Source of the DNA: a virus
DNA length: 36,278 bases
Reading direction: 5' to 3' (one strand)
Virus record (IMG/VR): IMGVR_UViG_3300042090_001311
Coordinates: 1-36,278 of that record
The notes below the pieces were generated by a model. That model was not told where the DNA came from, ran no database searches, and worked only from the letters and a program-made list of their open reading frames with translations. The position numbers were made by a program, and so were the translations under genes. This document shows, one piece after another, positions 4,226-35,042 of this stretch; position 1 is the first letter of the stretch; the number at the start of each line of letters is the position of its first letter.

Positions 4226-4843
4226 ATGGCTATCAATATCAAGCCAGGCGAAAACTGGCCGCCCCGCATCACGCCCTCCGCCCCCAGCGGCTCGCGTTAC
4301 AGGCTCCCGCTCCACACGATCGCCCCCGAGGACATCACGCCCAACGGCGACCGCTATCTCATCGAAATCATCGACGTGGAGGACACCCTCCAGCTCGGCC
4401 AGCTCCTCATCGTCACTCAGGACCCGAATGTCAACCCGATGAATCCGCAGGCCGACCCCACTGTCGAGGCGCGCGGCGTGCTCGTCGGCGTCGTGCTCAC
4501 TGCCGGCAACGGCCACCTGCTGGGCTTCCCCGACCCCGCGCTCGTCACGCCGAGGTACGAAGAAGTCATCCACGACTTTCCTAAGGGCTCGCGCGATGCC
4601 ATCGAGCATGTTCAGACCGGGCATGACATCGAGCGCGAGTGGGCCAACGTCACCATGTTCTACGAGCCGGGAGATGTGGTGCTGGTCGACCGCAACGCGC
4701 GGGGGCGCAACCTGCGCGTGGTCAATCGGGAAATCCGCATCATCGGCCAGATCGACGTTCTGGCCAAGATCGAGGGTATCCGCCTCACCCGCGTCGGTGA
4801 TACATGGGAGCCCGAAGAGGTGGAGGTCGATGCACAAGAGTGA
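4226..4843 (+). CDS. GroES-like co-chaperonin domain protein
   Basis: A 205-residue protein with GGAAGG upstream of ATG 4226. The order of beta elements matches Cpn10/GroES: NGDRYLIEIIDVEDTLQLGQ (the P-x-DR-x-L-V-E strand), ARGVLVGVVLTAGNG (the G-x-V-x-A-x-G strand), YEPGDVVLVDRNARG (the GD-V strand) and IIGQIDVLAKIEGI (the DILA terminal strand). GroES is about 95 residues; here about 55 extra residues lie between the second and third elements. Phage GroES homologues (T4 gp31, RB49 CocO) work with host GroEL to fold capsid protein. Whether the mobile loop is functional cannot be judged. A GroES fold without chaperonin activity remains possible. Confidence 0.5.
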   Translation: MAINIKPGENWPPRITPSAPSGSRYRLPLHTIAPEDITPNGDRYLIEIIDVEDTLQLGQLLIVTQDPNVNPMNPQADPTVEARGVLVGVVLTAGNGHLLGFPDPALVTPRYEEVIHDFPKGSRDAIEHVQTGHDIEREWANVTMFYEPGDVVLVDRNARGRNLRVVNREIRIIGQIDVLAKIEGIRLTRVGDTWEPEEVEVDAQE

Positions 4844-5102
4844 AATCACGATCGACCCCTGGCGCGACAACGCCAACGAGCTGACCAAACGCACGACCAT
4901 ACACTATCGGCGCGATGGTCAGCCTGAGGTGTCGATGGACGTTACTGTCACTGATCTGGAGTTCGGCGACTTCGACATCTTCTCACAAAAGATGCACATT
5001 TGGATCGAGCTGCTCAAGCAACGAGCAGAAGGAGAAACGAAGCAAGATGAAACCCCTCGTCCACCAGGACTCCAGTGGCTTCGTCCCTCTGCCGGACGGT
5101 GA
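4830..5102 (+). CDS. Small unknown protein
   Basis: A 90-residue protein from ATG 4830 (GGAGG at 4822-4826). The N-terminal 60 residues look like a two-sheet domain (TTIHYRRDGQPEVSMDVTVT...) followed by a helix (MHIWIELLKQRAEG) and a proline-rich tail. It overlaps the previous gene by 14 nt and the glycosyltransferase gene by 56 nt. Function unknown. Confidence 0.55.
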   Translation: MHKSEITIDPWRDNANELTKRTTIHYRRDGQPEVSMDVTVTDLEFGDFDIFSQKMHIWIELLKQRAEGETKQDETPRPPGLQWLRPSAGR

Positions 5103-5943
5103 TGTCGTCATCACCTCTGGCCCGCTTGGTGGCTTAGGGGATATTCTCATCTACTCGACGCTCGCAGAGCGGTTCGCCCAGATGGGACGCCGCGTCTATA
5201 TAGACGAGGACAACACCGCCCGCTCGAAGGAAGTGCTGGACCTCGTCTGGGGCGCTAACCCCCACATCATCGGCACCTGCAAGCTCAAGCCGAACGCCGG
5301 CTACGTGCGCCAGGGCCTCTTCTACGAGATCGCCAACCGCTACCCGCTCGGCTCCATCGAGGCGATGGAGCGCGCACATGGCCTGCCGCCGCCATATGGT
5401 CTGGCACCCAAGCTCTACTACGCGCCCAAGCCTTTTCACATCGACCTCTCCAATACGATCCTGGTCGACTTCTCAGCCGTCTCGTCCAGCATCGGCACGG
5501 AGGGCATCCTCGATGCCATCCGCTTCGCGCGCGGCAAGTTCCGCAACGCTCCGATGCTCCAGGTCTTCTTCAAGAGCCACGTCGCGACAGAGCCTCCGCG
5601 CATCGCAATGGACTCCTACCAAGTCCAGTCGCTGCGTGAGTATATCGACATGATCGCCGCCGCGCGCGGTTGGATCGGCTCCGAAGCCGGTGGCCAGGCC
5701 CTGGCCTCGGCGGTCCGCCAGGCCGATGTCTACGACCTGGGCGCCAGGCCGGAGGTGCTGGTTACCGCCTGTCCGCCCACGTTCAATAGCCGGGGCTACA
5801 CGTTTCGCACCAACGACTACCGAGTCACCTCGCACGGCGACATCCCTGGCGACTACTTCGACCCGACCGAGGTCAAGCAGTACGTCTACGAGTTGCGCTC
5901 GCGCATGGAGACCGACAAGCACCTGCGGGATGAGCCGGCATGA
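5047..5943 (+). CDS. Glycosyltransferase, GT-B fold, heptosyltransferase (GT9)-like
   Basis: A 298-residue protein. Residues 21-47 (VITSGPLGGLGDILIYSTL...) carry the glycine-rich GGLGD loop that opens GT9/ADP-heptose transferases. A later segment (around 205-230) with EYIDMIAAARGWIGSEAGG then QALASA resembles the sugar-nucleotide binding helix of the second Rossmann half. ATG 5047 follows AAGGAG. No membrane segment, so it acts in the cytoplasm. It opens a cassette of sugar-related genes with overlapping stops and starts. Donor and acceptor are unknown; host surface glycan or virion protein are the likely acceptors. Confidence 0.6.
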   Translation: MKPLVHQDSSGFVPLPDGDVVITSGPLGGLGDILIYSTLAERFAQMGRRVYIDEDNTARSKEVLDLVWGANPHIIGTCKLKPNAGYVRQGLFYEIANRYPLGSIEAMERAHGLPPPYGLAPKLYYAPKPFHIDLSNTILVDFSAVSSSIGTEGILDAIRFARGKFRNAPMLQVFFKSHVATEPPRIAMDSYQVQSLREYIDMIAAARGWIGSEAGGQALASAVRQADVYDLGARPEVLVTACPPTFNSRGYTFRTNDYRVTSHGDIPGDYFDPTEVKQYVYELRSRMETDKHLRDEPA

Positions 5944-6635
5944 GGGTCTGCGTCATCTCCAGCGCGCCACGCTCGTGGCGTGAGCTGACTGACATCACCT
6001 GGCCGGCGCTAGCGAAGTATTGTAAGCGACACGGGTACGACCTGCACACGGATGTCTCTGAGGTCACCGAGCGCGTCGGCTTTCCCACCTGGGGGGCGAA
6101 CCACCCGGAGTTCATCCCCATACGCGGGTTCATTAAGCTCGACCTCTTCATGCGGTTCATGGAGTACGCTGAGCCTGAGTACGACTACCTCGTGTGGTTG
6201 GACGCTGACTGTCTCATCACCAACTTCGAGAAGAGGCTGGACAGCTTCCTGGGATACTCGTCTACCCTGGCACCTTGCGTGACGATGACCTACGACTACA
6301 ACGGTCACAACGCCACGTACATAGCGGTGTCAAGCGACAAACTCATCCACGATTATCTGTGGGCGTGCCGCAACGCTGGATGGCGCATGTTCGGCTGGCA
6401 TGACTGGGGCGAGATGGAGGCAATGCTGCGGTTCTCGCAGGCCCCTCCGTACAAGGACATCATCCGGTACGTCTCGGTACAAGAGCTATGCGCCCTGCCG
6501 CCGAACGTCTATCCGACGCCAAAGTGCATCGCCGAGTCTTACGAGTGGACACCCGACTCGCTCTCGGTCCACTTCTCGGCCCTCTCGATCCCCGAGCGCG
6601 TGCGTCTCGCCAGAGAGTGGGCAGCGCGTGCATAA
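5940..6635 (+). CDS. Glycosyltransferase, GT-A fold (paralogue 1)
   Basis: A 231-residue protein in ATGA overlap with the previous gene. The N-terminus (MRVCVISSAP) is a Rossmann strand. WLDADCLITN holds the metal-binding DXD motif at D88-D90. The arrangement resembles galactosyltransferases of the GMA12/MNN10 (GT34) group. The C-terminus ends in a motif shared with the genes at 7612 and 8286 (SIPERVRLAREWA). Soluble. Probably transfers a hexose from a nucleotide sugar; substrate unknown. Confidence 0.65.
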   Translation: MRVCVISSAPRSWRELTDITWPALAKYCKRHGYDLHTDVSEVTERVGFPTWGANHPEFIPIRGFIKLDLFMRFMEYAEPEYDYLVWLDADCLITNFEKRLDSFLGYSSTLAPCVTMTYDYNGHNATYIAVSSDKLIHDYLWACRNAGWRMFGWHDWGEMEAMLRFSQAPPYKDIIRYVSVQELCALPPNVYPTPKCIAESYEWTPDSLSVHFSALSIPERVRLAREWAARA

Positions 6636-6993
6636 GCCAGACTGCCACTGCGCTATTCATGGCGGACGACCGAAGCAGTCGCGACCAGCGACCGAGCGGT
6701 TCTGGCTCTACGTCGTGCCAATGATGGACGACCGTGGCTGCTGGGAATGGGCAGCGAAGATATGCCGCAACGGCTATGGCATGATAAGCGTCGAGAAGCA
6801 TCGGTCAAAGAAGCTCTTAGCTCACAGGCTATCCTATGAGATGCACTTCGGACCTATAGCTCCTGGGCTTGTCGTCTGCCACCGCTGCGATAACCCGAGC
6901 TGCGTGAATCCTCATCACTTGTGGCTCGGGACCCAGGACGAGAACATGGCCGACATGAAACGCAAAGGCAGGGCTTGGCGCCGTGGCGTTTGA
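6628..6993 (+). CDS. HNH homing-type endonuclease
   Basis: A 121-residue protein from GTG 6628, overlapping the previous stop. Residues 84-102 (CHRCDNPSCVNPHHLWLGT) are the hallmark HNH/zinc motif, followed by DENMADMKRKGR. AHR at 65-67 provides the first histidine. This is the usual form of free-standing phage HNH endonucleases, which nick or cut specific DNA and spread between phages. It sits between two glycosyl/methyl genes and overlaps both, so if inserted it is now integrated into the overlapping gene chain. Confidence 0.8.
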   Translation: MHKPDCHCAIHGGRPKQSRPATERFWLYVVPMMDDRGCWEWAAKICRNGYGMISVEKHRSKKLLAHRLSYEMHFGPIAPGLVVCHRCDNPSCVNPHHLWLGTQDENMADMKRKGRAWRRGV

Positions 6994-7615
6994 TATCAAG
7001 GCGTTCGATGAGAAGCGGTACAGCCAGTTCGGCGAGGACGGCATCACCCATGCGCTGATCCGTCGTTTGGACCCGCCGCACAGCTTCCTGGAGATCGGCT
7101 GCGGCGATGGGACCGAGAACTGCACGCGCATCCTCACCGACTTCAAGTGGACGGGTTTGTGGGTCGACCGCGACCCGGCCAACGCTAGCCTAGCTATAGA
7201 GGTCGGCACGCCGCTTGGGGTGCGCGTCATATGCGCGCACGTCTCCTTGAGCAACATCGCGTTCTACCAGGGCCAAGTTCCACAGGAGCTAGGCGTCCTC
7301 TCCATCGACGTTGACGGCAACGACTACCACCTCTGGAAGGGGCTCTGCGTGGGACCGTACGCGCTACGGCCGTACATCGTCATCATCGAGGCGCTCATCG
7401 TCAACGAGGACGGCTTCCGCTCAGATGACGACTACTACGTCATGCCGTACATCCCGGAGTACGTCTGGGACCAGCGCGACCATTCCTCGGGGTCAACCGT
7501 AGCTGCTCTCAAGACGTTGGGAGGTGAGCTGGGCTACACGTACTTGGGACGGCCGGCAAACCCGCACTCGCCCAACTGCTTCTTTATCCGTAACGACTTG
7601 CTGGAGAGGCTATGA
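6983..7615 (+). CDS. SAM-dependent methyltransferase, FkbM-like
   Basis: A 210-residue protein from GTG 6983. It contains QFGEDGI then FLEIGCGDGTENCTRIL (residues 35-51), the SAM-binding motif I, and VDRDP (61-65), the acidic end of strand beta-2. LGVLSIDVDGNDYHLW matches motif IV of FkbM-type sugar O-methyltransferases. In the surrounding cassette it would methylate a sugar added by the neighbouring transferases (inference). Overlaps its neighbours at both ends. Confidence 0.7.
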   Translation: MAFDIKAFDEKRYSQFGEDGITHALIRRLDPPHSFLEIGCGDGTENCTRILTDFKWTGLWVDRDPANASLAIEVGTPLGVRVICAHVSLSNIAFYQGQVPQELGVLSIDVDGNDYHLWKGLCVGPYALRPYIVIIEALIVNEDGFRSDDDYYVMPYIPEYVWDQRDHSSGSTVAALKTLGGELGYTYLGRPANPHSPNCFFIRNDLLERL

Positions 7616-8289
7616 GCAAGGTCTGCGTCATCACCGCTCACGACGCCCGCTACGCTGAGATGGCCTCGATCACGATGCCATCGCTCATGCGGTACTGCGC
7701 TAAGCACAACTACGAACTGTGGGTTGACGACAACATCGACCCACGCGAAGGCGACTTCTGCAAGATTCGCCTTTTCCGAGAGCTATACGCTACCGGCAAC
7801 TATAGTCCAGACGACTTCTGCTTCTGGATCGACACCGATGCGCTCGTTATGAACAGCGAGGTCAAGCTGGAGGATGTGTCTCACCACTGGCTAGACTATG
7901 TGACAAGCTCTACGCTATGGGGTAACACCCAAGGTCACTACCTAGTCGGCTATGATCCCAATGGCATTAACACCGGAACCTGGCTTGCGCGGTTCTCCTC
8001 GAAGGCAGAGCACTTCCTGCGGGTGGCGACGGAGACCAGCGCCAGCATGGGCTGGGCCGATCAGGTCGGTCTACTGATGACGGCGCTCCAGCCGACGTTC
8101 AGGGACATCGTGCGCTATTGCCCCGGCAGGGTGATGAACTCCATGCCATACCGCCTCTATGGCTGGAACTGGCAGCACGGCTATGAAATTAACGCCTACG
8201 AGGACGGCAATTTTGTAGTACACTTGCCAGCGATCGAGCTTCCTAAGAGGCTAGAATTATTGCGCGAGTACGCGAGAGGCGCCAAGTGA
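7612..8289 (+). CDS. Glycosyltransferase, GT-A fold (paralogue 2)
   Basis: A 225-residue protein starting MSKVCVITAHDARYAEM, in ATGA overlap with the methyltransferase. The DXD motif is D74-D76 in FWIDTDALVMN. C-terminal IELPKRLELLREYA matches the end motif of the genes at 5940 and 8286, so these are tandem paralogues. No membrane segment. Substrate unknown. Confidence 0.65.
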   Translation: MSKVCVITAHDARYAEMASITMPSLMRYCAKHNYELWVDDNIDPREGDFCKIRLFRELYATGNYSPDDFCFWIDTDALVMNSEVKLEDVSHHWLDYVTSSTLWGNTQGHYLVGYDPNGINTGTWLARFSSKAEHFLRVATETSASMGWADQVGLLMTALQPTFRDIVRYCPGRVMNSMPYRLYGWNWQHGYEINAYEDGNFVVHLPAIELPKRLELLREYARGAK

Positions 8290-8993
8290 AGACGGCGCTC
8301 ATCACTGTCCAAAATGACCTCTACAAGCCGATCGGCGAGATCACTCTGCCGCTGATGACAAGATACTGCGAGAGGCGTGGCTATCACTTTCGCTGTGGCC
8401 AGTACCACACGAACCCCTCTGACCTCCCAACCTACGGCGACCGTGGGAAGGTCGAGCTGTTCAACCGCTTCTACTTGCAAGGGTACGATTACGTCATGTT
8501 CCTGGACTTGGACGTGGTCATTATGAACAGCGACATGCCTGTGCAGACGATGCTAGGCTTCCGGCCGTTCCTGTGGACATACGACCACAATGGACCCCTC
8601 AGTGGGTTCTGGATCGCTAAGTGCGAGCCGCAAGTCTACATGACGATGAACGCGATTAAGAACGGCGCTCCGGCGGCCGGCAAAATCAGCGTGACCGAGG
8701 ATGTGGGACCTCCGCACGGAGTGAACCTGCGCCTGGAGCCGCACGGCGCGAGCGACCAGATGATGATGCGCTCGCTGATGAACATACCCCCCTTCGGCGA
8801 GGTGCTTGGTGAGCACAACTGCTTGCCCGGTGGCCAGGTCGGTCACACCTACCCGCGTGAGGTGATGAAGCTGCCGAAGGAGTTTCCCAACATTAACGAC
8901 TACTACGAGGGGGCGTTTTGCGTCACGTTCCCTGGCGTACCCCTCCAAGAACGCATCGAGCTATGCCGCCAATGGGCGGAGAGGGCAGTATGA
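8286..8993 (+). CDS. Glycosyltransferase, GT-A fold (paralogue 3)
   Basis: A 235-residue protein from GTG 8286 (GTGA overlap). The DXD motif is D74-D76 in FLDLDVVIMN. The C-terminal VPLQERIELCRQWA is the shared paralogue motif. Compared with paralogues 1 and 2 it differs in the acceptor half (about residues 95-200), consistent with a different acceptor. Confidence 0.65.
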   Translation: MKTALITVQNDLYKPIGEITLPLMTRYCERRGYHFRCGQYHTNPSDLPTYGDRGKVELFNRFYLQGYDYVMFLDLDVVIMNSDMPVQTMLGFRPFLWTYDHNGPLSGFWIAKCEPQVYMTMNAIKNGAPAAGKISVTEDVGPPHGVNLRLEPHGASDQMMMRSLMNIPPFGEVLGEHNCLPGGQVGHTYPREVMKLPKEFPNINDYYEGAFCVTFPGVPLQERIELCRQWAERAV

Positions 8994-9229
8994 AGGCGCG
9001 TGTTATACGTGTACCTGCAACTTCAGCGTCAGTTTACATCGAGGTAGACTTAAGCACTAGCCCATGTATGTTTCAGCCCGATGGGCCATCAGTTAAGAAA
9101 CGTGAAGAGGGTGGAGTGTTGTCAGCTACCCGTTATATTCAGTACCTTACGGGTACACCTGGACAGTTCAAGTCTCTGCGTCGCCGTATAGATGAGGCAC
9201 TTGCGCAGTTGAAGGACGGAGAAGAGTGA
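8990..9229 (+). CDS. Small unknown protein with atypical codon use
   Basis: A 79-residue protein starting MKARVIRVPATSASVYIEVD, with GGAGAGG before ATG 8990. Codons such as GTT, CGT, ACT, TCA, TTA and TAT are frequent, clearly lower in GC than the flanking genes. The C-terminal half (SLRRRIDEALAQLKDGEE) is helical. Likely acquired separately. Function unknown. Confidence 0.55.
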   Translation: MKARVIRVPATSASVYIEVDLSTSPCMFQPDGPSVKKREEGGVLSATRYIQYLTGTPGQFKSLRRRIDEALAQLKDGEE

Positions 9230-9816
9230 GCAAGGGTCAGCAGCCGCTTTGTGAGCCGGAGCTGTTCGAGCCGCTCCAGGAGCTGGTCAAGCGCTACGGC
9301 ATCGTCAACCTGGTGGAGACCGGCACCGGCCCGTCCTCCTCTGGTCTCGAAGCCGCCAAGCGGCTGGGCTTGCGGGGGTACTCGTGCGATGTCTTTCGGC
9401 CGTGCGTCGAGCGTGCCGCGCACATGTACCCCGGCTCGCTCTGCTTCCACGGCGAGAGCCTGGGCTTCTTCGCCCACATCCTGCCGACGCTTGTTGGCCC
9501 GACGTTCTTCTGGCTCGACGGTCACTGCCCAACAGATCAGGCGTGCCTGCCTGGACCCATCTTCCCGCCGTACGAAGAGATGCTGATGATCCGTAGCCTC
9601 AAGCGCGGCTACGAGCACGACGTGCTGTGGATTGACGACATCGCCATGATCGACGTACCCGACAACCCGACCGCCTCACGCTGGGACGTTGACCTCGCCG
9701 GCATCCGCTGGCAGGGTGCCAAAGAGCACTCATGGGAGGACTACCTATCGCTCATGGCTGGCACGCACGACTACGAGGTCAACGACTGCATGCTGCGCCT
9801 AACGCCGAAGACGTGA
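9226..9816 (+). CDS. Class I methyltransferase-like protein
   Basis: A 196-residue protein from GTG 9226 (GTGA overlap). Residues 28-40 (NLVETGTGPSSSG) form a motif I-like loop, YSCDVFRPCVERA gives the following beta-2 region, and PTFFWLDGHCP the motif IV position. LWIDDIAM is a further strand. This resembles methyltransferases of sugar and antibiotic pathways. Catalysis is unproven since motif I is divergent (ETGTG instead of E/DxGxG). Last large gene of the sugar cassette. Confidence 0.55.
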   Translation: MSKGQQPLCEPELFEPLQELVKRYGIVNLVETGTGPSSSGLEAAKRLGLRGYSCDVFRPCVERAAHMYPGSLCFHGESLGFFAHILPTLVGPTFFWLDGHCPTDQACLPGPIFPPYEEMLMIRSLKRGYEHDVLWIDDIAMIDVPDNPTASRWDVDLAGIRWQGAKEHSWEDYLSLMAGTHDYEVNDCMLRLTPKT

Positions 9817-10067
9817 CCATCGTGCTCGTCCAGGAGTTGTGCGCCATGCTCAAGCGCGGCTCCGAAGGTCGCTGCCTTGATGGCGCTGCCATCCTCCAGC
9901 AGTTCCTCGACGCGCACCCCGAGGTTGACCCGATCGAGGCTCGACGGACGGCGCTGTTGGTCGGCCGCACGCCGTTCCCCTCAATCGACGGCAACCCGCC
10001 AGTCTTCCGTGACCGCCCGTTCTACGACGCTAGATATTGGAGAGGTCGGGACGGTTCGTCTGCTTGA
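9813..10067 (+). CDS. Small unknown protein at the end of the cassette
   Basis: An 84-residue protein. GTG 9813 is preferred because it overlaps the previous stop (GTGA), like its neighbours. It starts MTIVLVQELCAMLKRGSEG and is mostly helical. Its 3' end overlaps the 3' end of the minus-strand large terminase by 38 bp. No family recognised. Confidence 0.45.
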   Translation: MTIVLVQELCAMLKRGSEGRCLDGAAILQQFLDAHPEVDPIEARRTALLVGRTPFPSIDGNPPVFRDRPFYDARYWRGRDGSSA

Positions 10068-12051
10068 CCTCAGTCACCCAGCGGAACGCCTGCTCGAACT
10101 CGGGTCGGCGTTCCTCTGCTTCCTGCTCGCGCGTGCGACGGTGCATCCCACTGTAGCCGTCCCGCGCGATGCAGAGCGCGATGCAGAGCGCGTCGTAGTG
10201 GTCGTCGTGCGAGCCGCTTTTAGCTTTGAACGCGCCGGACGGTTGGCGCATGAGCTTGGTGACCTCGTCAATCGTCTTCTCGTCCGGTATGATGATGTCG
10301 GGGTCGGCTCGCCCGGTCTCTGGGTGCTTGCGGCAGAGCAGCTCCGTGAACGTCTGGTCCATGAGTGGGCGAGTTTTCTCGTTGGTCTCCCAGCCAGGGT
10401 AGTCTGAGGGCAGCGCCGTTCCAGGCTCACGGTCCAGCCGCTTCCAGTAGTACACGTTCCGCATCCCCATGTCCATGCAGGAGCGAATCATCTGATATCC
10501 CATGCCCTTGAGTTCAATCGCGTAGTAGCAGTTGAAGTACCAGCGGTACATATAGTAGAGCTGCTTGCGGACGATGTAGTCTGGAGCACGGCACTCGAAG
10601 GTGCAGACGACCTTGTTGTCGCGCCAGCGCACGACCTGCGCCACCGTCGCGTCCGAGTTCATGGACTCGTACGCGATGTCAGTGTCGACGCCCATCGTGT
10701 ACTTCTCGCCGCTCTGCGGTGGAGCATAGATGCGGACCTGCTGCCACTCGTTGTCAGCCCCCTGGTGGAACTGGTCCTCCCCTTCAAAGAGCCCAGTCAC
10801 AAGCGGCGGCTTCTCCATCGCACGCAGTGCGTCCATCGCCATGCGGTCAAAAGGAACGGTGCCGGAGTCGATGAAGGCCGAGTCGATCGTGTGGAGAAAT
10901 TCCTGCCTGAACGCTAGTAGCTTCATGTCCTGCGTTGGTAGCTTGTAGCCGTCGATCTTCCGACGCCGCCAGAACAGGCGAGAAAGTGAGACGCCGTACT
11001 TCTCATGCAGCTCCTTCTCTTCCTCATCACCGTAGCGCGCCAGAGTCCCCAGCGTCTGCTTCATCTCTTCAAGCTGCGCCTTCGTGATGGGTCGCAGCTC
11101 GGCGTGTGGGTTCTCGCGGGAGCGGCAGTCGTACTCCTCGTGATAGCGCCACGGGCAGACGGCCGGGATGAACACGCCAGGGTAGCCTTTGGCGACCGCA
11201 TCCGGCAACCCCAGTGCCCCGTTCAGCACGTCGGAGGCGCGCAGCTCCCCCTTGTGCTGCTCCAGGCGCTTTGTCCACTTGGGGTTGTCGGCGACGGCCT
11301 CACGGACCATCGGCTCGTAGGAGTCATCGAAGCCGTTGGGCGTCGTGTCCACGATGAACCAGGACTCCGGGCGCATCGGCATGGCCGAGACGATGCCCGT
11401 CTGAATCGCTATCTGACGCTCGGTGGTCATGTGCGCGTACTCGGATGCGATGACAAGCCCAGGCGCCTCGCCACGAAACGAGGAGGGAACAGTGATCTGG
11501 ATTGCCGAGTTCAGGCCCGGGTTGTCCAGACGGTCCTTCGGGTTAGGGTTATCGAAGATGTAGTGCTTGATATTCTGAATGCGGCGCATCGGCTGCATCC
11601 ACGCCGGGAGGTTATTGAGCATCGTCCCGACGTTGGTGGCCTGGTCGGCGGCGACATCCTCGTCATCGACTAAGATCAGCGCACGGTGGTTCTCATCGAG
11701 CACGTACCACATGGCGTCGGCGATGTTGTCAGTCGTCCACCCGAGCTGCCGGGCCTTAATCTCCACGATTCGCACCGGCAGCTCGTTACGGTACTGCGAC
11801 TGCTTAGCCACATTCAGGATGGCCTGCCCGACCCACGGCCGCAGTAAGACGAGGTTCTTCTGCTTGTTGACGACGTAGGCGAAGTTGCGCTTGAAGAACA
11901 GCGGTGAGAGGTGCATCATGCGCGTCAGCTCGACGCGCCAGAGGTCCTCGTGGCCCTTCGGGCACGCGTCGGTGCCGAACTTCGCTTGGAAGAACTGCCC
12001 AACGTCGAGCAGCTCCTCGGGCTCGAACAAGGAGGTCGCCATCACGCGCAC
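10030..12051 (-). CDS. Terminase large subunit (DNA packaging ATPase/nuclease)
   Basis: A 673-residue protein. The ATPase half has a divergent Walker A (IKARQLGWTT, K99-T107) of the K-x-R-Q-x-G-x-T/S type, and Walker B LVIASE (199-204) with catalytic E204. The nuclease half has GVDTD (454-458), AIELKG with E513, and HDDHYDAL (615-622), the RNase H-like acidic triad. The segment FLHTIDSAFIDSGTVPFD is the linker typical of these enzymes. It drives DNA into the prohead through the portal and cuts the concatemer. GTG 12051 or ATG 12042 could be the start. It is the only packaging/structural gene on the minus strand. Confidence 0.9.
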   Translation of the reverse strand: MRVMATSLFEPEELLDVGQFFQAKFGTDACPKGHEDLWRVELTRMMHLSPLFFKRNFAYVVNKQKNLVLLRPWVGQAILNVAKQSQYRNELPVRIVEIKARQLGWTTDNIADAMWYVLDENHRALILVDDEDVAADQATNVGTMLNNLPAWMQPMRRIQNIKHYIFDNPNPKDRLDNPGLNSAIQITVPSSFRGEAPGLVIASEYAHMTTERQIAIQTGIVSAMPMRPESWFIVDTTPNGFDDSYEPMVREAVADNPKWTKRLEQHKGELRASDVLNGALGLPDAVAKGYPGVFIPAVCPWRYHEEYDCRSRENPHAELRPITKAQLEEMKQTLGTLARYGDEEEKELHEKYGVSLSRLFWRRRKIDGYKLPTQDMKLLAFRQEFLHTIDSAFIDSGTVPFDRMAMDALRAMEKPPLVTGLFEGEDQFHQGADNEWQQVRIYAPPQSGEKYTMGVDTDIAYESMNSDATVAQVVRWRDNKVVCTFECRAPDYIVRKQLYYMYRWYFNCYYAIELKGMGYQMIRSCMDMGMRNVYYWKRLDREPGTALPSDYPGWETNEKTRPLMDQTFTELLCRKHPETGRADPDIIIPDEKTIDEVTKLMRQPSGAFKAKSGSHDDHYDALCIALCIARDGYSGMHRRTREQEAEERRPEFEQAFRWVTEVKQTNRPDLSNI

Positions 12052-12824: not shown

Positions 12825-13078
12825 TGCTATCTAAGCACCCGAAGATCGTGGCCGTCTACTGGGAAGACGCCGCGTTCGTCCAGGGCAACAACATGTCGCG
12901 ACGCGAGGTGCATGAGCTAGAGCCGACGTTTCAGACATCGGTCGGCTTTCTCATGGAACGCTCAAAGGAGCGCATCATTCTTGCCGGGTCGATCGTAGAG
13001 TCTGGTGAGGAGACCGGCTACAACGACATCCTTACCATCCCGAGCGCTATGGTGCGTTCGGTGAAGTTCCTGCGATGA
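12824..13078 (+). CDS. Small unknown protein before portal
   Basis: An 84-residue protein from ATG 12824 sharing one base with the previous stop (TGATG); GTG at 12821 is an alternative. Beta-rich composition (IVAVYWEDAAFVQG, ERIILAGSIVES, MVRSVKFLR). Ends 4 nt into the portal gene. Function unknown. Confidence 0.6.
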   Translation: MLSKHPKIVAVYWEDAAFVQGNNMSRREVHELEPTFQTSVGFLMERSKERIILAGSIVESGEETGYNDILTIPSAMVRSVKFLR

Positions 13079-15141
13079 ACGCCTCCAACCTCTTCGGCCC
13101 CGACGCTCCGTCCCTGGGCCAGGGCGCTCGTCCGGCGGGCGGCTGGCTCGGCGGCGAGCCGCCCGGTGGCGGCAAGCCCCAGCGGCGCAGCGCCGAGCCC
13201 GAGACGAAGATGGTGCAGTGGTGCCGGCGCACCGCTGCGACGCTCAAGCGTGAGGCCCAAGAGCGCCTGGAACGCCAGAAGCGCAACACGAATCTCTCGC
13301 AGGGTGGGACGCCCTGGTGGCGCGATCGGCCGCGCTGGAAGCTCGGCACCAACCTGATGTTCCCGGCCACCATCCCGCTTCAGTGGACGGCCATCCTGTG
13401 CGACGCGCAGCCGACGCTCACGTACCGCACGCAGGACCGCAAGAAGCAGAAGCGCGCCGACATCGCGACTGCCGCTTGGAACAAAGCGTACGAAGACGGC
13501 CACTGGGAGCAGGTCATCCACGACGCAGTGCTTGTGTCACGGGTCCAAACGAAGGCGTACCTCTCTCTTCGGCCTAAGGTCTCTGGCTCTCAGGTAACTG
13601 CTGACTTGCGGTTCTTCAAGGGTGAGCAGGTCTTCTTCAACCAGAACGCGCGTGGCCCACTCGATGCCGAGGTCAGTCTCATCGAGTACCCCGAGAGCTA
13701 TGGCTCCCTTTGCGCTCGGTTCAAGGACCTCGAAGAGAAGATCGCCCGCAAGTACGACAAGCCGCGCACGGAGAGCCAGCCGCAGCGCCAGAGCGTGCTG
13801 GCGCCTCCCTCGTCCTACCAGATGCCGACCGGCGGCAGCCCGATCAACCTGCCTGCCTACGCCGCCTCCTCCAACCCACCGGACACCTACTCCGGCTCGG
13901 CGGGCCTCAAGGTGCAGGAGTGGTGGACGATGCCGCACGCGACGGTCAAGGTCAAGGAGCCCCAGTTCCTTGCGACCGGCGAGCCAGCGACGCGCCCCAA
14001 GCTCTACGAGACAATCGACCCAGCCGACTCCGAGCCCCTGCGGCGGGTCGTCACCGAGGGCGGCGTCATCTATGAGCTGCCTGCCTCGCTTGTCGCCGCC
14101 ATGATCGACGCCCAGGACAACGGCGGCATCCGCATCCTCTCCAACCAGCCTGCCTTCGAGGTAGTCCTCACGGAGGTAGAGTACCCGCTCTACCCCGATG
14201 GGCGCCTAGTCGTCATTGTGGACGATGACCTCCAAGTTGAAGATCGGATGAACCCGTTCGGGTTCGTTCCGCTGGCCGAAATCGTCGCCAATTCCGACCC
14301 CGGCGGTGGGCAGGTGGGGCCATCGGACATCGACCTCATCGCCTCCCCCTTCGAGCAGCTCGTTCGCATGGTGGCGCTCGTCGGCGATACTGCGATCATG
14401 ATGGGCAACCCAGCTTGGCGCATCTGGGCGGACGACCCGCTCCAGAACGATGATGTGACCAACGCCGCCGGTATGATCCTGCGCGAGTCTATCATGTCGC
14501 TGCGGTACTCCAAGCGTGAGCCAGCGCCCAACATGCCGCCGTACATCCAGAACCATATCAAGTTCCTCATCGACACGATCAAAGAACTCTCTGGGCTCTC
14601 GGATATTGCGGTGGGCAAGATGCCAGCCAAACCGCAGATCGCAACTGAGACGATGACGATGGCCCAGGAGGCATCAGGTGTCCGGTTCCGCGACTCCCTC
14701 TCGTCCCTCTCGATGGCCATTAAGATCGTAGGCGAACAGTTCCTAGAGTTCATGGCACGCTTCTACACGAGTCCGGTGGTTGTCCAGATCAAGAACGAGG
14801 CGGGAGTCGAGGAACCGGTCCCAATGCTCGGCGCGTACCTCACCGAGCCCATGATCGTCGAGGCCAAGGCCGGCTCGCGCCAGCCCTCCGGTCCCAGCGC
14901 CCGCCTCAACACACTGCTCTCGCTCAAGAACGCCGGTGTTCCACTCGACATCGAGACGGTCTACCAGATTCTCGAAGAGCTGGGCTCGATCCCATCCGCC
15001 TCAGCGGCCTTGCGTCGGATCGAGGAGCTGATGAAAGACCCGCGCCAGAAGTGGAAGCTCCTTACTGCGCCGAACGGTGGGAACCAGCCCAAGAAGCCGG
15101 GCAGCAAGGCTTCTCGGAAGGCGGGCAAACCTGCCGCGTAG
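13075..15141 (+). CDS. Portal protein
   Basis: A 688-residue protein. Size, position after terminase and before scaffold/capsid, and several features fit a short-tailed phage portal: an N-terminal disordered Gly/Pro arm, KLGTNLMFPATIPLQWTAIL and THP-like QPTLTYRTQDRKK near residues 90-125, and the helical crown region (PYIQNHIKFLIDTIKELSG then LSDIAVGKMPAKPQIATETM), a pattern common in P22-like portals. The C-terminus is basic (KKPGSKASRKAGKPAA). It forms the dodecameric ring at one capsid vertex through which DNA enters and leaves. ATGA overlap with the upstream gene. Confidence 0.8.
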   Translation: MNASNLFGPDAPSLGQGARPAGGWLGGEPPGGGKPQRRSAEPETKMVQWCRRTAATLKREAQERLERQKRNTNLSQGGTPWWRDRPRWKLGTNLMFPATIPLQWTAILCDAQPTLTYRTQDRKKQKRADIATAAWNKAYEDGHWEQVIHDAVLVSRVQTKAYLSLRPKVSGSQVTADLRFFKGEQVFFNQNARGPLDAEVSLIEYPESYGSLCARFKDLEEKIARKYDKPRTESQPQRQSVLAPPSSYQMPTGGSPINLPAYAASSNPPDTYSGSAGLKVQEWWTMPHATVKVKEPQFLATGEPATRPKLYETIDPADSEPLRRVVTEGGVIYELPASLVAAMIDAQDNGGIRILSNQPAFEVVLTEVEYPLYPDGRLVVIVDDDLQVEDRMNPFGFVPLAEIVANSDPGGGQVGPSDIDLIASPFEQLVRMVALVGDTAIMMGNPAWRIWADDPLQNDDVTNAAGMILRESIMSLRYSKREPAPNMPPYIQNHIKFLIDTIKELSGLSDIAVGKMPAKPQIATETMTMAQEASGVRFRDSLSSLSMAIKIVGEQFLEFMARFYTSPVVVQIKNEAGVEEPVPMLGAYLTEPMIVEAKAGSRQPSGPSARLNTLLSLKNAGVPLDIETVYQILEELGSIPSASAALRRIEELMKDPRQKWKLLTAPNGGNQPKKPGSKASRKAGKPAA

Positions 15142-17528: not shown

Positions 17529-18548
17529 ATGCCAGCCGGGCTCGGGGGATACGACCAGGCCTCTGCGATTCTCGCGGAGTCGTTCGCGCCCTACGTCTCA
17601 GACGCGGTCTTTATCGGCAACCGCGTTGTCACCGTCTTCTGGGAACACGCCCGCAAGCACGACGAGGGCCGCTTCCTCGCGATCCCCGTGCTCGGCCAGA
17701 AGAACGACACCGCCGAAGCCTTCGGCCAGTACGACCAGCTCTCCAGCGGGCCACAGTCGCTCTACGACGTGGCCTCGATGCCGTGGTCGTGGTACCAGAC
17801 CGCTGTCTCGCTCGACTACATCACGGTCAAGCTCGTGCGCGGCCCGAACATGCGCGTCGACAACCTGGTCGTCCAGCAGGAGACCGCCATCGGGTCCATC
17901 ACGGACCTGCTCGGCCAGGACACCTGCTCGGTCACCAAGGGCCGCTCGACGCAGCACGGTAACAACCTGGTCGGCATCTTCGAGGCGACCGACAACGGCA
18001 ACACCTTCGATGTCTACGCCCAGCTCGCGCGTCTGGGCACTGGGTCCCTCGCCACTTGGGCCGGACAGGTTATCTCGCTCCCCAACTCCGGCATCGGCAC
18101 CGCCTCCAACGACGCCTCGCGCTCGCAAATCCTGCGGAACATGGCCGCCTGCGTCGTCGGCGACGCCTCACCGTCCCACATCATGGGCCGGCAGCAGGCT
18201 GTGGCCTCCTACATGTTCACGATGGACTCCCAGGTCCGCGTCTCGCCGGGTGACTCGGCCAACCCGTACCTGGGCAACCCGCACTTGCTCGCAGCGGTAT
18301 GGGTCGGTGACGACCACTTCGACGTGTACTCCAACGGCAGCTCGCTCGGCTACAACATGTTCTATGTCAACGCCGACCATCTGTGCTACCGCTACTTCGG
18401 CGAGAAGGGCTTCGACTTCATCCCCTGGATCGACACCCCCAACGTGCTGGAGAAGACCTGCCGCTACGTCATCGGCTTTGCCTGCTGCTCGGACAACCCG
18501 CGTCTGACAGGGTGGTACGGCGCGTTGAACGACCTTCTCAACCTCTAA
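17529..18548 (+). CDS. Major capsid protein
   Basis: A 339-residue protein. Position after portal and scaffold, size and composition fit an HK97-fold capsid protein. The middle shows an N-arm/spine-like helix (MRVDNLVVQQETAIGSITDLL), and glycine-rich beta segments follow (SPSHIMGRQQAVASYMF). The C-terminus has VLEKTCRYVIGFACCSDNP. ATG 17529 has GGAG 10 nt upstream. It builds the icosahedral shell. Its private promoter (17378) and the upstream terminator agree with a need for high expression. No specific subfamily could be assigned by eye. Confidence 0.7.
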   Translation: MPAGLGGYDQASAILAESFAPYVSDAVFIGNRVVTVFWEHARKHDEGRFLAIPVLGQKNDTAEAFGQYDQLSSGPQSLYDVASMPWSWYQTAVSLDYITVKLVRGPNMRVDNLVVQQETAIGSITDLLGQDTCSVTKGRSTQHGNNLVGIFEATDNGNTFDVYAQLARLGTGSLATWAGQVISLPNSGIGTASNDASRSQILRNMAACVVGDASPSHIMGRQQAVASYMFTMDSQVRVSPGDSANPYLGNPHLLAAVWVGDDHFDVYSNGSSLGYNMFYVNADHLCYRYFGEKGFDFIPWIDTPNVLEKTCRYVIGFACCSDNPRLTGWYGALNDLLNL

Positions 18549-21896: not shown

Positions 21897-22085
21897 ATGC
21901 CGTTAGAGCCTGGAGGTTCACCTTCCAAGACGATCCCAGAACTGCACTCAGGCCGTACCTTCAAGCGTACTAAGCGCAAGTACGGTAAGAAGCGCGCTCA
22001 GAAGCAGGCCATCGCCATCGCGCTTGCTAACGAGCGCAAGGGCAAGAAGCATAGTCGATACAAGCGCCGTCATAGGAGAGACTAG
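21897..22085 (+). CDS. Small highly basic protein (DUF6496-like)
   Basis: A 62-residue protein (MPLEPGGSPSKTIPELHSGR...). The order PGGSPSKTI-x-EL then QKQAIAIALANERKGKK resembles a family of small phage/bacterial proteins with S-x-x-TI-x-x-NI ... QAVAIAL ... AR pattern (DUF6496-like). The end is KKHSRYKRRHRRD. Third of the small basic proteins in this region. Its last base is shared with the GTG of the adaptor gene. Confidence 0.55.
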   Translation: MPLEPGGSPSKTIPELHSGRTFKRTKRKYGKKRAQKQAIAIALANERKGKKHSRYKRRHRRD

Positions 22086-23215
22086 TGGCCACCCCAACGG
22101 GATACTCCGGCGCTTCCGCTATCGCGATGGTCCAGAACCTCACGAACGAGTCGAGCCTGCCATCGACCAGCGTCATCCTCACCTTCCTCAATAAGGGGCT
22201 GGAGGAAGTTTGTCGCTTGGTGGGTGGGCCGCGCCTGTGGGCCGCATACCCAACGGAGAATAACCAGACCTCCGTCCAACTGAACGCGGACGTAGAGGAA
22301 GTGCTCTCGCTGAACTTCTCCTCGGGGGCGAACAACTCCAGCGGCTTCATCACGACATCCTCGCCGCTCTCGCAGGGGACGCTGGTCTACCCGATGGTGC
22401 TCCTGGAGCAGGCGACGTTCATGGATGCGGCGGCCGGTTTCCCGGCGGTCGGGTATGGGCCGCCGCAGGCTGCCTTCGTCTATCAGGATCAGGGCACAGC
22501 CCCGACGACGACGCTGCCCACCCCCGACGCCGCCGCCTTCGCCTACCAGAGCGGTACGTCCAACGGCGTCGCCTACACGGTCGTGCTCACCTACACGAAC
22601 GCGGCGGGCGAGACGAGCGCGGGTGCCACGTCGAGCTACTCCCCCTCGACAACTGAGCAAGGGGTTGTCAACTCGCCTGCCGGCGTCTCCAACGCGACGG
22701 GCTACAACGTCTACGTCGGCACGAGCGCCGGTCCGTACTACCTCCAGAACACCTCGCCGATCGCGCTGGGCTCGACCTACACGCTGCCGGGCACCCCGAC
22801 GCTCTCGGGCACCCAGCCGCCCGCCACCAACACCGCGACCGGCGCCGGCACGGGCGGCGCGCTCTGGCTCCAGCTCTACCCGGCCGCTATGATCGGGCAG
22901 GTCAACGTCTACTACAAGGCGCGTCCCCAGCTCTGGGCCGACACGACGACCAACTCCTGGACGAACCTGGACACCTCGGCGCAGCAGGCCGCCGTCCTCT
23001 TCGGTGTCATCTGCGTGCTCTACAACCGTGGCCGTGGGGATGAGGCAAAGCAGCTCTGGGAGCCTCAGTACAAAGACATGGTCGGCGATGGCTCTGAGAA
23101 GCCCGGCTCCCTGACTGCGGCGCTCAATCGGCGCACAGTTGCGCGTTCGGGCCAAGTACGAGACGTGCGTGACCGCTCGTTCCCCAGTGCGCCGTGGTGG
23201 CTAACGAGCCCGTAA
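22085..23215 (+). CDS. Head-tail adaptor protein with an inserted Ig/FN3-like domain
   Basis: A 376-residue protein from GTG 22085. The N-terminal 60 residues (VQNLTNESSLPSTSVILTFL then NKGLEEVCRL) and the C-terminal 110 (YPAAMIGQVNVYYKARPQLW, then QAAVLFGVICVLYNRGRGDE) look like the two halves of the helical adaptor of short-tailed phages (P22 gp4 / T7 gp11 role). Between them, about residues 155-250, is a Thr/Ser-rich domain (VVLTYTNAAGETSAG, YNVYVGTSAGPYYL) with a fibronectin III/Ig-like strand pattern. It would connect portal to tail hub; the insert may contact the host surface or stabilise the tail. Confidence 0.5.
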   Translation: MATPTGYSGASAIAMVQNLTNESSLPSTSVILTFLNKGLEEVCRLVGGPRLWAAYPTENNQTSVQLNADVEEVLSLNFSSGANNSSGFITTSSPLSQGTLVYPMVLLEQATFMDAAAGFPAVGYGPPQAAFVYQDQGTAPTTTLPTPDAAAFAYQSGTSNGVAYTVVLTYTNAAGETSAGATSSYSPSTTEQGVVNSPAGVSNATGYNVYVGTSAGPYYLQNTSPIALGSTYTLPGTPTLSGTQPPATNTATGAGTGGALWLQLYPAAMIGQVNVYYKARPQLWADTTTNSWTNLDTSAQQAAVLFGVICVLYNRGRGDEAKQLWEPQYKDMVGDGSEKPGSLTAALNRRTVARSGQVRDVRDRSFPSAPWWLTSP

Positions 23216-25088: not shown

Positions 25089-25658
25089 GTGTCAACGCTC
25101 ACTATTCCTAACAGCTTCACGGCAGGCACGACCGCACTCTCAGCTTCGGTGAACGCGAACTTCACCGCTATCGCGACGTGGGCGAACGGGAACGTCGATA
25201 GCACGAACATCGGGTCGTTTGGTATTTATGCCTCCCAGATCATCCCGACAAGTGTGGCCACTGCAACGTTTGGCGGGACGCAGAACTATACGTTCCCTGC
25301 CAGTCTTGTGCTCGCCAACACGACGGCTACCGCCATCTCCTCGGCGGCGACGGGCTCCACGGCGGGACTCTCTCTCAATAGCACCAACGGGACCATCACT
25401 GTCGCAACGCCGATCGTCAACTTCCAGCTCAGTGGGGTCACGAAGGCTCTCGTCGCGGTGGACGGCGGCTTCGCGCCAGGTGCCGGAACAGGCACGGGCC
25501 CTGGCACCGCTAAGTACTACAGCGGCTCGGGGGCGCCGACGTTCTCAGCGCCCAACGGCTCGCTCTACACGCGGTATGACTCCACGACAGTCCTGTACGT
25601 CAACACCTCAGGGGCGAGTAGTTCTGGGACGACCTGGACTGCCGTGACTGTACCGTGA
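25089..25658 (+). CDS. Tail fibre-like protein
   Basis: A 189-residue protein from GTG 25089, directly after the hub gene. VNANFTAIATWANGNVDSTN and a repeated Gly/Ser/Thr/Ala pattern precede GTAKYYSGSGAPTFSAPNGS, LYTRYDSTTVLYVNTSGASS, a C-terminal motif common in phage tail fibre tips. It probably trimerises and binds the host surface, though it is short for a complete fibre. Confidence 0.55.
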   Translation: MSTLTIPNSFTAGTTALSASVNANFTAIATWANGNVDSTNIGSFGIYASQIIPTSVATATFGGTQNYTFPASLVLANTTATAISSAATGSTAGLSLNSTNGTITVATPIVNFQLSGVTKALVAVDGGFAPGAGTGTGPGTAKYYSGSGAPTFSAPNGSLYTRYDSTTVLYVNTSGASSSGTTWTAVTVP

Positions 25659-30255: not shown

Positions 30256-33200
30256 GCGCCCTTGACGCGCTGATCCGCGCAAAACAGACGGCCAAGCCCG
30301 CAACCGTGACCCCCCCGGCGCCAAAGCCCGCTGGAGGTGCGCTCGATGCGCTCATCTCGCGGCACACTGCGCCGCAGGAGGACCCGCTCGCGGCCCAAAC
30401 TGGCCTGCATGGCTCGGACCTGAGGGCGGCGCACATCCGGCAGTCAGAGCAGAGCGCTCTGGCAGCAGCACCTGGCGGAAAAGGGCCAGATGCGCTCACG
30501 CTCGCAACAGACTACCTTGGCACACCGGAGTACCTGCTCGATGCTTTTGGGCGGGGGGCGGTAGGAGGCGGCCTTAAGAACCAGGTGCGGGCGACAGGGG
30601 AGAATCTTGGAGATGTGCTCTCTCACCTGGACCCCTCCCACATTGACGAGATTCGCAAGCGGTACTCCATCTTTGGGCAGGAGTCGCTACAAGCAGCGGC
30701 ACGCAGCGGCGACCCAATCGCGAAGTGGTTCCTCACCGGCCACGCTACGCAGGCCGCTGGACTGCGCGGAGCAGCCGCAGTTATGCCTCCCAGCGCTGGC
30801 GCCCTAGCTGGAGCCGGTGCAGCGGCGCTTGAACATGCTCCTGGCGCTGCCGAGGCCGCCCTTCAATTCCCGATGGGAGCAATGGCCGGCGGCGCCGCCA
30901 AGGGCCTCTTGAGAGCCGCTGACTGGGCGGCGCCCTACGTTGACGCTGCGCTCAATCGCGTGCCGGGGATCGCGAAGTTCGACCAGGGCGCACGCGAGGT
31001 GCAGTACGGCTTTAACCGCTCCTTCCGGCCCTTCGCCAATGTGCGGATCGAGGCAGCCCGCAAGGCCGCCGCCAAGGGGGCGACGCCCCAAGCGGCCCGC
31101 GCGGCTGGCGCGCAGGCCGAGCACGCGGCGCGCACGATCGCAACCGCCGCGCAGGAGGGAAGCGGCAAGGCGCACCAGCTCCTGGCCCCCGTGTGGCGCG
31201 GGACGACGCCGGCCGAGCGGGTCGAGATTGAGCGCCGCTCGGAGGGTCTGGCCTCCAGGCCCGCCACCGGCAAGCTCGGTGATGCGGAGCTGGACTCCCG
31301 CGCGCAGCAGTACCGCGCGCTCTTGCAGCAGCGCGACCACGATCGGGTAGCAGCGGGTCTGACCGACCAGCAGAAGCTCGTGCAGGGCTTCACTCCCCGG
31401 CCGCTCGCGCACGCAGGCTACTCCCAGACGGCGGCCACCGATTACGACCGGGCCAAGGGCCTGGGGCTTCTGCCCGAGGACTACGACCCGGCCAATAACG
31501 CGATCCGTGCCTTCAGCGACACCTACGCCCAGATCGAGCAGCAGCAGGCCGGTGAGACTCTGCGGGCGCTGGGGCTCTCGACGCCCTTGGAGTACAAGAC
31601 GGCTAGCGGCACCTCGATGGGCTACGGCACCCCTGGTCGGCGTGCGGCGAGCAACTACGCTGGCCGTGAGGGCAACCAGGCGGCGCTCTTGCGCGCTGGC
31701 CAGGAGCTGGGCATCCCCACCCGGCAGACGGCCGCCGGGCAGACGGAGCTGGTGGGAGTGCCGCGCGCCCACGCGACCGGCGAGGACCTCGCGCGAGTGG
31801 CCGAAGCGCGGCGCTCGGGCGCCCAGCTCGGACGCTACGCGCAGCGCGTCCAGGGCGCCGCTACGCAGAGCGGCCAGCGGGCAACTGCTGCCTTGGACGC
31901 TCAGCACGCCAAGCTGGTCGCCGACGCTCAGCGCACGCTGCGCTCGGCCACCGCCACGGCGGCCCAGAAGGTGCGCGCCCAGGCCGACCTCCAGCAGGCG
32001 GCCCTGGCTCGCCAGCGCGCGGTTGCCGAGCAGCGCTTGGGCGCCAAGCTCCCGCAGCACAACCCGGCGTTCGATCCCGAGGCGAGCGGCCCCGGCCCGC
32101 GCTTGACGCCGGAGCAGACCACGCTCGCTAAGGTGCTCGCGCCGGTCTCGCGCCTCGGGGAGCAGGCAGGCAACACGGTCGACGCGATCGAGAAAGCCGG
32201 CCAGAGCGCGGCCGAGGGTCTGGCGGCCCGTGCCGCGCGCCAGGCGGCCCGCACCCCCGCGCAAGCGGCGGCGATCACGGCGCCCGTGCGAGTGGTTGCC
32301 AGCGCCATCCTCAAGGGCGACGCTGCGGCGCAGGCGCGGGTGGCGAAGCTCTCGCTCCAGTACGCCTCGCGCCGCATGGAGCGGGACCTGGCGACCACGC
32401 TGCGCCAGCGGCAGGCGGCCCTGCGGCCCCGCGCGATCGAGGACATCCGCGCGCCGATGATGACGGGCGCCAAGGCAGCGGCCAAGGCCGCTGGTTACGA
32501 GACGACGCGCACGCCGGGGGGCTTCGGCTCGCTGCCGGTGTTCCAGGACTCGGCCCTCACCCGCTCGCTGGCTGACTTCCTCGAAGACGAGGGCGCCCGG
32601 CCCCCGGAGGCCAAGGGCATCGCCTCGTTCTTTGACCGGCTCAATTCAATGGCGCGCGTTGGGATCATCGCCAACCCGACCGTCCACGTCCTGTGGAACT
32701 ACAACAACCAGTTCCTTGCGGCTGGGGGGTCCCCAGCGGACTTGGTCGACATCTACAACTTCACCAAGCCCTTCGACCAGAGGCTCATTGACGAGGCGCG
32801 TGAGGCAGGAGCGATCTTGCCCCACCAGCGCCTCGGCGAAGGGGTGCTCGGTGGCGACTACGCCACCATGATCGGGTCCTCTGAGGGACTCTCGCTCGCC
32901 CAGAAGATCGACCGTGGACTCACGGGCGCCTGGAACGCGAACCAACAGCTCGTCTTCAAGACCTTCGAGGAGCGCTATGCGGCCAAGCTCTACCAGCGCT
33001 TCGTCCAGCATGGCCTCACCCCAGAAGAAGCAGGGGTGGCAGTGCGTAAGGCTCTCGGTGACTATCAGAATGTCGCACGGCACGGTCCAGAGCAGTTCTT
33101 CTCGCGTGCGTTTTTTTTCTACCCTTGGCTCAAGACTATTGTACCGTTCTGGACGCAGACGCTTATCGAAGCTCCACAGTACGTGACGGCACCCATCCGC

Positions 33201-34739: not shown

Positions 34740-35042
34740 GTGGCAACGCTTGCACAGGACCTCGACATCGGCCTGCTCATCCTGGAGAACCTCGAAGCCT
34801 TCCTCGGGGGCCAGCCGGTCTCCAAGACCGTGCCGCTCGGGAAGGGGTCGCTCGCGCTTCAGGCGGTGCGGATCAGCGGCCCCGACACCCAGTACCCGGC
34901 CATCACGGGCTCCGTGACGACCATCCTCTTCCAGGTGCTCGGCGACTTCCTCGAAGAGACCTCCGGTGCCCCCGTCACCTTCGCCGAGAAGGTCGGCGGG
35001 ACGTGGCTGGGCTGGACGTTGACCTACACCGTCCCGGCCTAA
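34740..35042 (+). CDS. Small unknown protein after endolysin
   Basis: A 100-residue protein from GTG 34740 (AAAGGA upstream). MATLAQDLDIGLLILENLEA is an N-terminal helix; the rest is beta-rich (GSLALQAVRISGPDTQYP, TWLGWTLTYTVPA). No membrane segment. It may be a lysis or virion accessory protein; not recognised. Confidence 0.5.
   Translation: MATLAQDLDIGLLILENLEAFLGGQPVSKTVPLGKGSLALQAVRISGPDTQYPAITGSVTTILFQVLGDFLEETSGAPVTFAEKVGGTWLGWTLTYTVPA

Follow-up and report, generated by a model that had tools for sequence, protein, structure and literature searches.

Introduction

Glycans on the virus particle are known from very few phages. Mycobacteriophage glycans on capsid and tail-tube subunits are reported in PMC12619734, which cites Freeman 2023. 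In the chlorovirus PBCV-1, domain 1 of A064R is a rhamnosyltransferase of the capsid glycan and domain 3 a sugar O-methyltransferase, and the capsid-glycan transferases are mostly without secretory-pathway signals (PMC9614988). Here we analyze a cassette of overlapping genes in the IMG/VR virus record IMGVR_UViG_3300042090_001311, which was studied over its entire length of 36,278 bases (about 64% G+C), referred to below as the window. The cassette encodes four predicted glycosyltransferases (GT9L, GTa, GTb and GTc), two methyltransferase-like proteins (MT1 and MT2), an HNH endonuclease and two small open reading frames (ORFs), sm1 and sm2. We estimate a probability of about 0.58 that it specifies a soluble pathway which uses host sugar nucleotides to build an O-methylated glycan of roughly four sugars, probably on a virion protein.

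The layout of the cassette is the same as that of Mycobacterium phage Che8, with other enzyme families and a wide range of exchanged methyltransferases. Che8 encodes a fusion of a GT2 glycosyltransferase with a Methyltransf_24/TylF domain (gp108), a second GT2 (gp109) and a GT25 (gp110), and is reportedly covered by the Freeman study. Both phages thus have tandem overlapping glycosyltransferase genes (three in Che8), a methyltransferase domain and an HNH gene nearby. However, the Che8 enzymes are GT2/GT25 rather than GT9/GT34, the host is Mycobacterium, and the genes lie at the right end of the genome. Neither Pfam nor hhalign detected homology between the Che8 proteins and the transferases studied here (hhalign probability 0.2-0.3%, compared with 99% for a true relative). 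An earlier note on this DNA had claimed that no described phage system has this exact composition; we found none, but Che8 carries a cassette of the same kind.

The PBCV-1 system around A064R and A061L also resembles the cassette in having virus-coded, mostly soluble transferases and a conserved core with a variable outer part (PMC9614988, PMC7826918). A064R has a GT34 fold and joins glycosyltransferase and methyltransferase in one polypeptide, an arrangement found here only in relatives of the window and with an FkbM methyltransferase. In contrast to the cassette, PBCV-1 is a eukaryotic algal virus, its glycan is an N-glycan of the capsid protein, and the sequence identity of A064R to GTb is 14%. 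We know of no GT9-type enzyme in the PBCV-1 system. The bacterial autotransporter heptosyltransferases TibC and AAH share the GT9-type GT-B fold predicted for GT9L and act on protein, but they carry a four-cysteine iron finger and an N-terminal beta-barrel. Two cyanophages contain homologues within glycan gene clusters, P-TIM68 of GT9L (AIR93524, 33% identical) and S-T4 of MT2 (gp117, 28.7%). These clusters differ from the cassette in that they include genes for sugar-nucleotide synthesis, and matches to GTa, GTb or GTc were not detected.

Results

The seven genes listed by the earlier note, for a GT9-fold enzyme, three GT-A glycosyltransferases, two methyltransferase-like proteins and an HNH endonuclease, are uninterrupted plus-strand ORFs between 5047 and 9816, and the description of a glycan-building, methylating unit was supported. 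The name given to the cassette was correct but incomplete. The ORFs sm1 and sm2 had been missed, and the chain comprises nine genes up to 10067. Overlap had been claimed for almost every junction and was found at all eight, by 4 to 11 bases: GT9L/GTa (4 bp), GTa/HNH (8), HNH/MT1 (11), MT1/GTb (4), GTb/GTc (4), GTc/sm1 (4), sm1/MT2 (4) and MT2/sm2 (4). Six of the eight are 4-bp ATGA/GTGA overlaps, and the two longer ones (8 and 11 bases) flank the HNH gene. The seven plus-strand ORFs of at least 190 amino acids between 5047 and 10067 are far above chance, with 0.28 expected and a maximum of 2 in 200 Markov shuffles.

Relatives were recovered by alignment-based scans of IMG/VR, in which single-protein scans gave nothing. 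They are G001 (L002/L011), G002 (L009), G003 (L010), G004 (L012), G009 (L034) and G010 (L035), together with the fragments L027, L029 and L036; two relatives by terminase large subunit (TerL), L030 and L033, end within TerL and were left out of cassette scoring. Clustering with relatives, which had been proposed as a check, showed that the four-transferase core is kept and the methyltransferases differ. GT9L-GTa-GTb-GTc and the small protein sm2 form a conserved core in related records of two lineages. In the window, G002, G003, G004, G009 and G010 the gene order is a small terminase subunit (TerS)-like gene, a GroES-like gene, GT9L, GTa, GTb, then GTc with sm2 and the methyltransferases, and an inverted TerL. 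Cassette genes occur in every scorable relative, i.e., with DNA reaching past the terminase gene, whose terminase identity is about 49% or more. Of two remoter relatives (terminase 43-47%), the one with a 48-kb record contains no cassette transferase over its whole length.

The second lineage is represented by G001, a different phage with a terminase of 24% identity, a capsid protein without match and a 127-bp end repeat. Its cassette has the same order, with identities of 50% for GT9L, 34-44% for GTa to GTc, 38% for MT2 and 52% for sm2. As the head genes are so unlike, the cassette has either been shared between lineages or been conserved much more strongly than they have. Among the window and G002-G004, mean identity is 80% for the capsid protein, 67% for the portal and 66% for TerL, and 57% for GT9L and GTb, 44% for GTa and 42% for GTc. 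Exact end repeats are present in G001 (L007/L008, 127 bp) and G004 (L022-L024, 99 bp), both classed as linear in IMG/VR; these records are probably complete circular assemblies.

GT9L (5047..5943, plus strand) is the most conserved cassette enzyme, with 47-60% identity across six related virus records, and probably adds the first sugar. Its AlphaFold2 (AF2) model, of modest confidence with a predicted local distance difference test score (pLDDT) of 58, ranked beside TibC, a Veillonella GT9 protein, WaaC and WaaF. The best Foldseek match was TibC (4rap, E 1.8e-6), and VIA-align gave Z scores of 10.6 for the GT9 protein 3tov, 10.4 for TibC and 9.4 for WaaC. The earlier label 'GT9-like' is supported only by this fold model of modest confidence and received no support from Pfam, where four GT9L orthologues searched up to E 1 matched no family, the GT9 model included. 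A GT9L profile matched no glycosyltransferase in the PDB, and no GT9L was found in bacterial genomes by a pattern-limited search. The protein of the window has only two cysteines, and neither the four-cysteine iron finger of TibC-type enzymes nor the N-terminal beta-barrel. Lacking the finger, GT9L does not belong with the protein heptosyltransferases of the TibC type, however similarly it may function.

The other three transferases, GTa (5940..6635), GTb (7612..8289) and GTc (8286..8993), all on the plus strand, are GT34-like GT-A enzymes with the DxD motifs LDAD, IDTD and LDLD, respectively, and a DxD motif was present in 24 of 24 related GT34-like sequences. The cut-off of the GT34 Pfam model PF05637 (GMA12/MNN10; 23 bits) was passed by GTa (25.8 bits) and GTb (33.4 bits, 5e-8). 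GTc scored below it and is a paralogue of GTa and GTb (BLASTP to GTb, 1e-15). A fourth GT34 in G004, GTd, reached 64.4 bits. GTb was modeled by AF2 with a pLDDT of 86.7, and the closest solved fold to the model was PBCV-1 A064R-D1 (2p73; Foldseek E 9e-12); VIA-align aligned 192 residues at Z 21.2 and a root-mean-square deviation of 2.4, with the next family at Z 17.4, and XXT1 was also among the fold matches. A064R came first in a GT34-like sequence-profile search as well (E 5e-4). The tree divides the sequences into three distinct old groups, GTa (support 100/99), GTb (94/88) and GTc (98/97), and the GTa branch holds orthologues from six other viruses. An extra GTc-like gene of G010 groups with the GTc of G001 (98/98), a sign that the last transferase has been exchanged. 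Searches of phages by tblastn with GTa, GTb, GTc and MT1, and of NCBIfam with the window's enzymes, gave no match.

MT1 (6983..7615, plus strand) is a SAM (S-adenosylmethionine) methyltransferase-like protein with the motif EIGCGDG; it scored below the cut-off for Methyltransf_23 (0.0034), its profile found nothing in the PDB, and an orthologue of 47% identity lies in the G009 cassette. MT2 (9226..9816, plus strand) is a SAM-fold-like probable methyltransferase with the motifs VETGTG and WLDGH. It matched no Pfam family, and its best PDB profile hit, HemK (E 0.15), was not used as proof. Relatives of MT2 lie in the cassettes of G001 (38%), G004 (two copies) and G009, and in the heptose cluster of cyanophage S-T4 (gp117). 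Both are called methyltransferases because of their SAM-type motifs, the cassette context and the true methyltransferases that fill the same slot in relatives. The sets differ between records: MT1 and MT2 in the window, Methyltransf_24 and MT2 in G001, FkbM in G003, a GTc-FkbM fusion in G002, the same fusion plus MT1 and MT2 in G009, FkbM with GTd and two MT2 in G004, and an MT2-FkbM fusion in G010. The methyltransferases are thus the variable, exchanged part of the cassette. As GTc and FkbM are one polypeptide in G002 (L009) and G009 (L034), methylation appears tied to the sugar added by GTc.

The earlier note's statements that the cassette includes no membrane flippase and no sugar-nucleotide synthase were both supported. 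No cassette protein has a transmembrane segment (highest 19-residue Kyte-Doolittle value 1.58), and hence none was seen of the kind expected of a Gtr-type membrane flippase or membrane-bound transferase. In the window and seven other records, neither the NTP_transferase (PF00483) nor the epimerase family (PF01370) was matched, and the thymidylate synthase/hydroxymethylase family (PF00303) was absent from the same eight records, two of which have end repeats and are probably complete; controls worked in each case. The absence of the two sugar-nucleotide families makes host sugar nucleotides the likely source, and together with the absence of PF00303 and of transmembrane segments it disfavors DNA modification and Gtr-type seroconversion.

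Of the remaining cassette genes, sm2 (9813..10067, plus strand) encodes a conserved 84-residue protein with the motif PFPSI..G and homologues inside the relatives' cassettes; it is a core part that the earlier note overlooked. The 79-residue ORF sm1 (8990..9229, plus strand), which has 4-bp overlaps on both sides, is lineage-specific, with no family match and no homologue. Its G+C content at third codon positions (GC3) is 0.42, compared with about 0.8 in its neighbors, i.e., of foreign composition, and it may be non-functional. The HNH endonuclease gene (6628..6993, plus strand; GTG start; HNH_3 PF13392 1.9e-12; phrog_826 3e-29) has a GC3 of 0.69 vs. about 0.8. It is missing from this junction in every scorable relative, and a 54% identical copy occupies another junction in G010. 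For this reason we rejected it as a working part of the pathway; the earlier note had counted it as a member of the cassette, whereas it is a hitchhiking mobile gene that moves between junctions.

Upstream of the cassette lies a gene for a GroES-like co-chaperonin (4226..4843, plus strand; phrog_3188 0.021), whose profile matched GroES chains best in the PDB, in two collinear weak segments. It is upstream of the cassette in all collinear relatives, at 43-53% identity. Convergent with the cassette is TerL (10030..12051, minus strand; phrog_2 1.1e-9), 60-62% identical in G002-G004. The cassette is therefore located among TerS, GroES-like and TerL genes, the packaging/head region. The cassette-bearing phages have TerS and TerL in opposite orientations, while in two remoter, cassette-free relatives (L031 and L032; terminase 43-47%) TerS, TerL and the GroES-like gene are consecutive on one strand. 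The arrival of the cassette and the inversion of TerL may be a single event.

The window phage is an uncultivated bacterial virus, and the cassette family is found in small podovirus-like environmental phages. The window also encodes a P22-type portal (13075-15141), the major head protein (17529-18548) and an SU10-type adaptor (22085-23215). A DNA-level search of 50,697 phage records with the window gave no match, and as its ends carry no repeat, the record may be incomplete. A major head protein of 75% identity is encoded on L051 (CAIYET010000454.1), a contig of 3.3 kb that was assigned to a Candidatus Hydrogenedentes bin; this single contig of a metagenome-assembled genome was too weak a hint to adopt that group as host. 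Further observations in relatives include tyrosine integrases in G009 (32257-32721) and G010 (42169-42666), whereas a search of the other related records yielded none, and CxxGxSR proteins resembling dual-specificity phosphatases (L035:12804-13481, minus strand; G001 17606-18115), one of them within a cassette. An SPFH/prohibitin-like membrane protein gene (L002:7549-8364) stands immediately upstream of the G001 cassette, and early-region proteins with long Ala-rich repeats occur in G001 (8450-9313, YAADAAAYA) and G002 (45643-46011, SAAWSARSA).

Discussion

In the pathway that we propose, host sugar nucleotides would feed a soluble glycan assembly encoded by the phage. GT9L would attach a first, conserved sugar, and GTa, GTb and GTc, which are probably retaining and metal-dependent, would then add up to three sugars one after another. 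The methyltransferases would O-methylate outer sugars, with the GTc-added sugar as the most likely site. With a protein of the virion itself as the most likely acceptor, particles would exit the cell in a coat of methylated oligosaccharide, fixed at the base and phage-specific at the tip. We infer the order of the sugars, the methylation of the glycan, the virion target and the biological role, and the conserved base with its variable methylated tip is likewise a reading of gene content.

We favor the virion as target because the fold of GTb and the GT34-like profile single out the capsid-glycan enzyme A064R-D1, and because GTc and FkbM form one polypeptide, as do glycosyltransferase and methyltransferase in A064R and Che8 gp108. 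It is also favored by the core being kept across relatives and in a second lineage, within the packaging/head region, and by the lack of a flippase-like transmembrane protein and of the synthesis families tested. Several points weigh against this. The acceptor, the glycan and the activity are all predicted from genes, MT1 and MT2 are weakly supported as methyltransferases, the GT9L model (pLDDT 58) is of modest confidence, and gene position is weak evidence for a target. Two acceptor candidates that lie outside the cassette and occur in both G001 and the window (the N-terminus of 25089-25658, and 34740-35042) were not adopted, as only their co-occurrence points to them.

GT9 enzymes are best known from the inner core of lipopolysaccharide (LPS), to which they typically add heptose, and host LPS is for this reason a possible target. 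Working from the cytoplasm, the cassette might then alter the LPS core or the capsule at the host surface, and so keep related phages from superinfecting the cell or progeny from re-adsorbing to debris. The WaaC match of GT9L (Z 9.4) and the location of its nearest annotated relatives in sugar clusters of cyanophages that include heptose genes fit this, as do the integrases, which suggest that some relatives may be temperate and could modify the host surface as lysogens. However, we consider surface alteration unlikely, if not negligible: the position in the packaging/head region is kept in all collinear relatives, the closest fold to GTb is a capsid-glycan enzyme, and membrane-bound transferases, flippases, acceptor-lipid enzymes and a Gtr-type set are all missing from the cassette.

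There is only a small chance that the particle is not the target and that a host protein or small molecule is glycosylated and methylated during infection, for take-over or counter-defense. The enzymes are soluble and have no fixed acceptor, and a conserved small protein, sm2, forms part of the cassette; yet four successive transferases with capping methylation are a design for building a polymer rather than for a single hit, and the cassette sits with late genes. Hypermodification of phage DNA bases with a glycan by successive glycosyltransferases is very improbable, since PF00303 is absent from the window and seven other records, two of them probably complete, even though phages with several DNA-acting glycosyltransferases are described where PMC12619734 cites Pyle 2024.

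Returning to the glycan on a virion protein, we tentatively suggest that the cassette is a form of phage protein O-glycosylation with a GT9-type start, three GT34-like extenders and swappable methyl caps. It might be convergent with the capsid glycans of chloroviruses and mycobacteriophages, and passed between phage lineages as one module, constant at the base and variable at the tip. If the virion reading is true, a compact, always-present cassette from other enzyme families would suggest that virion glycosylation has had several origins, and the layout of conserved core and variable cap would make it possible to test for diversifying selection acting on the phage coat.

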